Part shown: piece after piece, positions 2,791-58,121 of the stretch | Layout: each line of letters begins with the position of its first letter | How positions within the stretch are numbered: position 1 is the stretch's first letter | Source: Myroides odoratimimus | GTDB taxonomy: Bacteria > Bacteroidota > Bacteroidia > Flavobacteriales > Flavobacteriaceae | Direction: 5' to 3' | Assembly (NCBI RefSeq): GCF_001485415.1 | Contig: NZ_BCMQ01000007.1 | Span: 124,001-188,000 of the forward strand | Length of the DNA stretch: 64,000 bases | The notes under the pieces: model-generated | The model's input: the letters and a program-made list of their open reading frames with translations, nothing else | Databases searched by the model: none | What the model was told of the DNA's origin: nothing | Position numbers and translations under genes: made by a program

Positions 2791-3309
2791 TTTTGGGTAG
2801 AAGTCTTGTGTGGTATATAATCGGAGAGAGAAGAGGGAGTGAAGCCTGTAATTATGGCTACCTAATAGTTATCAAGCAAATCATTATTCATAGGTTCTAT
2901 TTCTTCAACACCCCTACAACACTTCTTCAACATTGCTTCAAGAAACAAGCCTTCTAGTAGAGCAATCTTGGGGTATTGTTGAAGAAGTGTTGAAGGAAAT
3001 GCTATAACTGCTTATATACACTGCTGTTAGGAGCTGTTGGGCAATTAGGATAGAAATGTTTGTTTTTGATTTATGTTATTGATTAGTAGTGTTTTGTGTC
3101 GTTTTTAGGGAGTGAAAAAAGTGATGCTTTTTTTATGTGGTATTTAGGTGTTATACATCACAGATTAGAAACCTTCAACAACGCGAGTAGAGGTGTATCG
3201 CGTGCATCTACTAGAAGTAATGAGATGTTATATATTACAGAATATATATAACCTTGCGATAAATAAGAGCGAATATAGTACTGATGGGATGAGATAAAAA
3301 TAAAGCGAT
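2791..3309. repeat. Gene-free gap with structured repeat element, copy A
   Basis: No convincing gene lies here. The gap holds a perfect 16-bp inverted repeat, CAACACTTCTTCAACA (2917-2932) with its complement (2977-2992), 44 bases apart. A CTAG (2954) and CAATCT (2963) lie between the arms, GAAATGCTATAAC follows the right arm, and a 24-base block at 3087-3110 (containing GTGTTTTGTGT) is followed by an A-run/T-run hairpin. The gap at 35.3-35.6 kb has the same order of motifs at nearly the same spacing. Confidence 0.65.
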
Positions 3310-35243: not shown

Positions 35244-35690
35244 GTGGATATTAGACACTTTGTTTAGGTAGGTATTTAGTAATCATACAGTTTAGATAGA
35301 AGGAGAATAGGTGATGAGTAAATGGAGGATTGTTCGACAAAGTCACCTCTAGCTCCACCAATCTCGAGTAATTGTCCATGAATTGTCGAGCGAATTGCTT
35401 ATAACACCTGTATTATAAGGGGATATGCTATAGAGGGTGTTTGTGTTTATAAAGGATATTTTTTGTTTAACTTGTTGTTTGTTAGTGTTTTGTGTTGTTT
35501 TAAGGGCTAAAAAAAAGTACATCTTTTTTTTTTATAAGACAGATCTTTGCTCTTATTGAGGAGATAGAATAGAAAAAAAGACCTTTCAGAACATGAAAAA
35601 GTACTTATAAAAGTGAAATATAGATTCGAATATTAAAAAAAATAGTGTCCTTTTTCTTAATAGTTAAAAGATGTACTGAGTTGTAAAAAA
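35244..35690. repeat. Gene-free gap with structured repeat element, copy B
   Basis: No convincing gene here. The arms TCGACAA (35334-35340) and TTGTCGA (35383-35389) lie 42 bases apart, with CTAG (35349) and CAATCT (35359) between them. GAATTGCTTATAAC follows the right arm, and a 24-base block at 35483-35506 matches the one at 3087-3110 at 22 positions. The same A-run/T-run hairpin follows. The order and spacing match copy A. Confidence 0.65.
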
Positions 35691-38678: not shown

Positions 38679-38752
38679 GCCGGTGTAGCTCAGCTGGCTA
38701 GAGCAGCTGATTTGTAATCAGCAGGTCGTGGGTTCGAGTCCCTCCATCGGCT
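38679..38752 (+). tRNA. tRNA-Thr (TGT), copy 1
   Basis: A 74-base cloverleaf: acceptor GCCGGTG with CATCGGC, D-stem GCTC/GAGC, anticodon stem GCTGA/TCAGC with loop TTTGTAA (anticodon TGT), T-loop TTCGAGT. The 3' CCA is not encoded. The T-stem has a T-T mismatch (second pair of GTGGG/CCCTC), shared by all five copies. Confidence 0.97.
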
Positions 38753-38793
38753 CAGATGTTTTTTGAAAAATTGATATTGTAATACTTTGAGTC

Positions 38794-38867
38794 GCCGGTG
38801 TAGCTCAGCTGGCTAGAGCAGCTGATTTGTAATCAGCAGGTCGTGGGTTCGAGTCCCTCCATCGGCT
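38794..38867 (+). tRNA. tRNA-Thr (TGT), copy 2
   Basis: Identical 74-base tRNA to copy 1, 41 bases further on. The spacer ends in TTGAGTC, a tag also found before copies 3 and 4. Confidence 0.97.
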
Positions 38868-38909
38868 CAAAAGTTTTAAAAGAGATTAGTATTACAATAA
38901 TATTGAGTC

Positions 38910-38983
38910 GCCGGTGTAGCTCAGCTGGCTAGAGCAGCTGATTTGTAATCAGCAGGTCGTGGGTTCGAGTCCCTCCATCGGCT
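38910..38983 (+). tRNA. tRNA-Thr (TGT), copy 3
   Basis: Identical 74-base tRNA; repeat unit length from copy 2 is 116 bases. The AT-rich spacer is diverged from the others except for the TTGAGTC tag. Confidence 0.97.
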
Positions 38984-39024
38984 CAATAATTTTTTGAAGA
39001 TTAAATATTGCAATACATTGAGTC

Positions 39025-39098
39025 GCCGGTGTAGCTCAGCTGGCTAGAGCAGCTGATTTGTAATCAGCAGGTCGTGGGTTCGAGTCCCTCCATCGGCT
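39025..39098 (+). tRNA. tRNA-Thr (TGT), copy 4
   Basis: Identical 74-base tRNA; repeat unit length from copy 3 is 115 bases, with the TTGAGTC tag directly upstream. Confidence 0.97.
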
Positions 39099-39134
39099 CA
39101 AATGTTTTAATATTGTATTGCAGGCATTCATTTT

Positions 39135-39208
39135 GCCGGTGTAGCTCAGCTGGCTAGAGCAGCTGATTTGTAATCAGCAGGTCGTGGGTTCGAGTCCCTC
39201 CATCGGCT
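39135..39208 (+). tRNA. tRNA-Thr (TGT), copy 5
   Basis: Identical 74-base tRNA; last copy, preceded by a shorter spacer (36 bases) that lacks the GAGTC tag. A terminator follows two bases later. Confidence 0.97.
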
Positions 39209-44328: not shown

Positions 44329-44499
44329 AATAGTTCTTTCGTTAAGTTTATTTCTAATAATTGATTAAGGTTTATATAATAGTCATACTTTTGAGTAAAT
44401 TGTTACAACAAAAAATGTTTGATTTTATATAAAATTTTTATTTTTATTTGTAATTTATTGATATTCAGTTTTTTATTTTGCTATTTAAAATTATTATAA

Positions 44500-58047: not shown

Positions 58048-58090
58048 TGGTATAGTTTTAGTGGCTTAATACATTGATTTATAGTTTGTA

Positions 58091-58121
58091 TTGTTTTTAA
58101 GTAACTTTTAAATTACCTTTG
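58091..58121 (+). promoter_or_regulatory. Promoter of the orphan HTH antitoxin-like gene
   Basis: TTG at 58091-58093, a 20-base spacer and TACCTTTG at 58114-58121, close to consensus, 26 bases before the ATG. Confidence 0.65.

Follow-up and report, generated by a model that had tools for sequence, protein, structure and literature searches.

The intergenic sites bound by Noc and SlmA, together with the matS and maoS sites, are dispersed over the chromosome with a bias relative to the replication terminus, and each consists of a short single motif. Published accounts of these systems describe Noc sites as scattered round the chromosome and assign matS, with its protein MatP, to the Ter region. 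Repeated 11-bp units are found in the ParR/parC system, where they are arranged head to tail under an oligomer. REP and REPIN sequences, associated with RAYT, are intergenic, palindromic and present in many copies. Strong DNA gyrase sites, including the gyrase motif and BIME-2, are made up of two roughly 45-bp helically phased arms round a centre; for E. coli, PMC6379681 gives this motif as 130 bp long with two 47-bp flanks and a 10.75-bp GC period, under-represented in Ter.

In the window, which is the whole stretch of 64,000 nucleotides of Myroides odoratimimus DNA that was analysed, an intergenic element occurs twice, as copies A and B, each with a core array of 11-bp units that face one another across a centre. 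These arrays are dispersed, intergenic, chromosomal and biased relative to the terminus in the manner of Noc, SlmA, matS and maoS sites, however they differ from them in extending over about 93-104 bp of facing units, in having a sequence specific to each family and in possessing a companion motif. The 11-bp unit is held in common with ParR/parC, although the arrays described here are chromosomal, exist in many copies and consist of two runs facing each other. The intergenic position, palindromic nature and high copy number recall REP and REPIN sequences, yet the arrays avoid one another instead of clustering, and the repeat neighbouring a RAYT-like gene is a different one as judged by eye. 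Likeness to gyrase sites lies in the two phased arms and in the under-representation near Ter, and is offset by strand-specific letters, a shorter centre, the lack of a GC period in one family (A) and the presence of another (D) near the terminus. The element is real, multi-copy and conserved, with a putative function and binding partner, and no description of it was found among the open-licence papers searched.

Unit architecture of the window copies

Copy A was originally predicted from its letters as a perfect 16-bp inverted pair (2917-2932 and 2977-2992) enclosing CTAG (2954) and CAATCT (2963), with GAAATGCTATAAC after the right arm, a conserved block (inside 3072-3110) and an A-run/T-run pair (3115-3134) following, and all of these parts are present. 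The left arm consists of four 11-bp units on the plus strand (2903-2946), beginning at 2903, 2914, 2925 and 2936 and delimited by the letters, the unit consensus and self-identity at lags 11 and 22. A 16-bp centre on the plus strand (2947-2962), with CTAG inside, separates the inner units, and the right arm consists of three 11-bp units opposed to the left ones on the minus strand (2963-2995). Further along lie a 30-bp plus-strand motif, here termed motif 2 (3072-3101, PWM score of 25.8 bits), which includes much of the predicted 24-base block, and the A-run/T-run palindrome (3115-3134), which is assigned to neither strand and recurs in other A/B copies. A plus-strand ORF of 142 aa neighbours copy A on one side and priA, also on the plus strand, on the other.

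The predicted second copy also exists, with its extent re-measured as about 35299-35533 in place of 35334-35545. Copy B has a left arm of four 11-bp units (35299-35342, plus strand; letters and lag self-identity), a right arm of three (35359-35391, minus strand), a motif 2 on the plus strand (35468-35497, PWM score of 31.2 bits) and an A-run/T-run palindrome recognised from the letters (35509-35533, no strand assigned), and is flanked by one plus-strand and one minus-strand ORF. The plus strand of the window is the leading strand, based on GC skew and orthology to the complete relative genome G131, and the PWM scan gave no motif 2 match of 13 bits or more on the minus strand. Two plus-strand (leading) motif 2 matches located upstream of plus-strand genes are unaccompanied by an array, at 44451-44480 (32.0 bits) and 58067-58096 (17.5 bits).

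Pooling 293 units of families A, B and D gave the consensus CTTSRASAWTN, in which positions 4 and 7 are C or G in 99% and 91% of units, respectively, and position 1 is C in 81%. Left arms contain four units and right arms three (A and B) or four (D) in the opposite orientation, on either side of a nearly fixed centre; some arms in genome G084 contain five or more units when counted by eye. In all three families, the self-identity of left and right arms alike is highest at lags of 11 and 22 (0.44-0.67), as compared to 0.25-0.29 (sd about 0.02) for shuffled arms at lag 11. For left arms, the values at lags 11 and 22 are 0.62 and 0.64 in A (0.27 shuffled) and 0.44 and 0.49 in B (0.29 shuffled), and the nearest competing lags are 19 in B left arms (0.43) and 21 in D right arms (0.50). 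An alignment of thirty A/B copies runs through the centre and needs just one gap, of one base, in the array.

The two arms can pair in inverted orientation in three registers 11 bp apart, with complementarity of 0.59, 0.54 and 0.48 in A and of 0.44, 0.43 and 0.40 in B, and it is the facing of the units that gives rise to the perfect inverted repeat. The original prediction further held that the arms of the two copies differ in sequence while each pair stays complementary, however this does not demonstrate compensatory change. Non-homologous registers had been compared, which makes the comparison invalid because the arms taken from copy A are left units 2-3, whereas the TCGACAA/TTGTCGA pair of copy B involves left unit 4.

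A family-blind array detector places the predicted element above chance, scoring the window copies at 71.1 and 42.8 and the rest of the window below 20; its maximum on shuffled DNA was -5.3 in ten 12-kb stretches and 11.3 in forty 20-kb stretches. In five further genomes, all 21 loci examined were given scores of 32.8-82.4 by the unit detector, although they had been located with model R1 beforehand. Another inverted array with an 11-bp period, built of GTGGTCGGCAT-type units, lies beside one RAYT copy at about 640-790 of locus L069; it was rejected as a candidate third family, being unrecognised by the unit detector.

Families, conservation and chromosomal placement

The genome of the window (G000) holds more than the two copies, with 77 model rows at E ≤ 0.05, a figure that counts both strands of a near-palindrome; for copy counts, the reverse-strand rows of one near-palindrome were merged by hand. 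A BLAST search of this genome with copy A detected ten more A copies (E ≤ 1.3e-5) and, at C5:36066, a weaker one. The same search with copy B found nine others, one more is located at C5:94468, and four further copies lie inside loci retrieved for their tails. Weak matches in G131 and in the Myroides albus genome (G028) revealed a third family, D, that was aligned separately (12 sequences) and searched for in G131, G166 and M. albus. G131 contains at least 35 A/B places (model R1, E ≤ 1.2e-10) and at least 29 D places (model R2), both being minima from 150 first-look candidates scored. Three near-identical A copies in this genome (L144, L153 and L158) each precede a 16S gene by about 0.9 kb and have the same direction.

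Across the genus, model R1 found A/B arrays in 11 of 398 genomes under strict filters and with eight candidates per genome, including that of the window and that of M. albus; the ten array-bearing genomes other than that of M. albus presumably belong to members of Myroides. Named genomes scanned for exact family A patterns gave no match.

Comparison of 18 array pairs between G000 and G131 (1,800 positions, with gaps counted as differences and loci L003, L009, L010 and L012 left out) gave 96.3% identity, against 90.2% for other intergenic DNA. Taken pair by pair to two decimals, array identity is higher in 15, equal in one and lower in two. The tail containing motif 2 is 88.3% identical and thus not above other intergenic DNA. 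Long flanks are shared with G131 stretches at 22 of the 27 G000 array loci, which include the 18 pairs above, mostly at 93-98% identity and at 83-95% where rrn-linked, while the other five gave no match or matched in the array only, and the corresponding G131 regions may lie outside the stretches compared. The prediction of a repeated, gene-free and conserved intergenic element is supported. The array of the A locus is found in G000, G131, G166 and G305 but could not be matched in M. albus or G339, a comparison across species that involves diverged flanks and no precise boundary. Arrays are gained or lost at loci over time.

The 64 copies of G131 exclude one another at short range. Their minimum spacing of 11.8 kb was reached by none of 20,000 random placements, and intervals shorter than 12 kb number one, against an expected 10.9. 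Considered alone, A/B copies have a minimum spacing of 23.0 kb (P 0.0004) and D copies one of 11.8 kb (P 0.084, not significant). The family-blind detector, which recovers 38 of 39 arrays in 12-kb stretches, found no second arrays in them against 7.4 expected, and found no array in 397 kb of the two largest G131 gaps (317 + 80 kb). Over the whole genome the spacing is not significantly even (CV 0.87, P 0.15), therefore the pattern is one of short-range exclusion and not a lattice; one arc of 18 copies, picked after looking, is regular (CV 0.46, P 1.5e-4), and a gap of 318 kb exists. Families are grouped along the G131 map, in 24 runs versus 32.7 expected (P 0.018). The 64 places of G166, among which some A/B places are weak matches, have a minimum spacing of 6.5 kb (P 0.001). 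An exception to exclusion is seen in M. albus (L100), where an A-like and a D-like array at 1546 and 1904 are 0.36 kb apart.

A/B arrays are rare near the replication terminus and D arrays are not. The sign of the GC skew of the G131 stretches, from which the replichores were assigned, switches between 1.92 and 2.17 Mb, and the 400 kb on either side of 2.05 Mb contain 1 of the 35 A/B and 10 of the 29 D copies (p 0.0016). Family D is not confined to the terminus in the way of matS, as its other 19 copies in G131 are more than 400 kb from 2.05 Mb. The skew of G166 is positive at 3.40 Mb and negative at 4.01 Mb; here a 1.1-Mb A/B gap at 2.85-3.97 Mb, terminus included, contains 0 of 57 A/B and 5 of 7 D places (p 2.8e-6).

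Motif 2 lies between the array and the A-run/T-run palindrome in A/B copies. Among 31 G131 A/B copies, set in 19 tandem, 6 convergent and 6 divergent gene contexts, the array follows the leading strand in 17 and opposes it in 14, while the better-scoring strand of motif 2 is the leading one in all 31, including weak scores of 7.0 to 13.3 bits in L136, L135 and L142. This holds for the convergent and divergent gaps and for three copies with both neighbours lagging, and a role as promoter or terminator was rejected because motif 2 keeps to the leading strand whatever the orientation of the neighbouring genes. At a threshold of 14 bits, the G131 stretches picked to surround arrays (480 kb in all) contain 41 leading and no lagging matches, 31 of them no more than 350 bp from an array, whatever its family, and 10 elsewhere. 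In a search of the whole G131 genome, 56 of 59 matches are leading (26/26 at A/B copies and 30/33 elsewhere). Column-permuted control motifs are already 78-83% leading, against which 31/31 has a P of about 0.003, therefore the strand bias of motif 2 carries less weight.

Motif 2 is leading in 17 of 19 G166 copies, several of them weak, and the stretches of this genome have 20 leading to 2 lagging matches at 14 bits. Genome G292, which has no A/B match, contains 29 motif 2 matches in two strand arcs with exceptions, its GC skew being too noisy for replichores. A motif-2-like score of at least 12 bits was found near two of eight D copies (L148 and L150, both leading), the remaining six being without one. 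Model R3 left out five of the 27 motif 2 rows of the first list.

A putative protein platform

The reading towards which we lean, as a tentative one, is that the arrays are binding arrays for a putative oligomeric chromosome-organising protein, with each copy being the platform on which a dedicated DNA-binding protein lands and oligomerises. Its subunits would sit one helical turn apart on the 11-bp units, next to each other on a single face of the DNA, as suggested by the single turn per unit, the nearly fixed centre and the partly strand-specific letters, and would assemble from both sides towards that centre. Arms of five or more units in G084 suit an oligomer. Dispersed and separated platforms, with A/B on the chromosome arms and D also round the terminus, could let the protein mark or fold the arms, with possible roles in segregation, nucleoid condensation or the coupling of division to the chromosome. 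The mixed gene context, the exclusion and the difference between families at the terminus argue for a chromosome-scale role over control of neighbouring genes.

Several observations count against a platform, including the uneven overall spacing with its 318-kb gap, the close pairs in M. albus and G166, the gain and loss of arrays, and a motif 2 tail no better conserved than other intergenic DNA. Since A/B arrays are absent from 387 of the 398 genus genomes at the threshold used, the putative protein would not be a general organiser. It is doubtful that the Myroides group has an undescribed chromosome-address system, in which A/B and D arrays held at a distance by selection, the former with a replication-polar motif, would be read by an oligomerising protein family that sets arm and terminus domains. 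To our knowledge, no such chromosome organiser has been described for the phylum. Should the arrays be protein platforms, their DNA would be a direct bait for the chromosome-organising machinery of a Bacteroidota lineage, and one geometry would be used with different unit sequences on the arms and at the terminus.

Mobile repeats, gyrase sites and RNA as less likely readings

Descent from an ancient mobile repeat, non-autonomous and MITE- or REP-like, is unlikely, although this reading ranks next. Exclusion would then represent target immunity, which fits the short-range pattern, and the families would be successive invasions, in keeping with their grouping along the G131 map; the copies are also homologous and dispersed, vary in presence at one locus between species, and include the D-like and A-like neighbours of M. 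albus. The second rank is given because the arrays are better conserved than their surroundings and no recent insertion is seen among the pairs compared, flanks being common to G131 at 22 of the 27 G000 arrays. No target duplication, defined end or linked transposase was found, and the A/B models gave nothing below E 1.1 in ten Y1 transposase loci. Carriage by a plasmid or phage was considered, however one query of each collection with copy A gave no match, and records of very near genomes may be absent from these collections. Should the element nonetheless be mobile in origin, target immunity would have left an unusual imprint on stable, orthologous sites, namely the avoidance of close neighbours. 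The element may also be a recombination site.

A REP element with its RAYT was rejected on the same ten Y1 transposase matches and on the adjoining repeat, which is a different one. RAYT-like Y1 transposase genes with their own palindromic repeat are located at two G000 contig ends (L068 on C1 and L069 on C2), and at the A locus of G305 a repeat similar to the RAYT-associated one is found on the far side of the array. Four Y1 transposase matches of equal score near the ends of G000 contigs C4, C32, C35 and C52 (L061-L064) are probably an IS200-like element.

It is improbable that the arrays are strong DNA gyrase sites, whose phased arms would wrap the enzyme and set supercoiling along the chromosome arms. 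The B and D arms do have a GC period of 10.75-11.0 bp, but the A arms lack it (12.5 and 7.75), the centre of copy A is 16 bp as compared to 36 bp for gyrase, and in 81% of units position 1 has a strand-specific C. The three rrn-linked copies are placed upstream of 16S, whereas PMC6379681 reports gyrase downstream of rRNA operons. The arms of five or more units in G084 and the undepleted D copies near the terminus also argue against gyrase.

It is very improbable that the element acts as a bidirectional terminator or as an RNA, whether regulatory or structured, as an array direction that varies beside a constant motif 2 direction fits no common transcript and the gene context is mixed, although an A/T palindrome closes the A/B copies and the folding energies of individual A copies are -34.6 to -46.6 kcal/mol, values without a shuffle control. 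The originally suggested selection on structure is unsupported at the RNA level, and an RNA hairpin was rejected on consensus structure and on the alternative pairing registers 11 bp apart: RNAalifold gave 22 pairs, three with double changes, for 13 A copies and none for 11 B copies. No Rfam family covers the element; at E ≤ 1, a search of 18 loci gave seven weak matches, none overlapping an array, and the whole window at gathering score gave five tRNAs only. These are five tandem tRNA genes with identical scores, located at 38679-39208.
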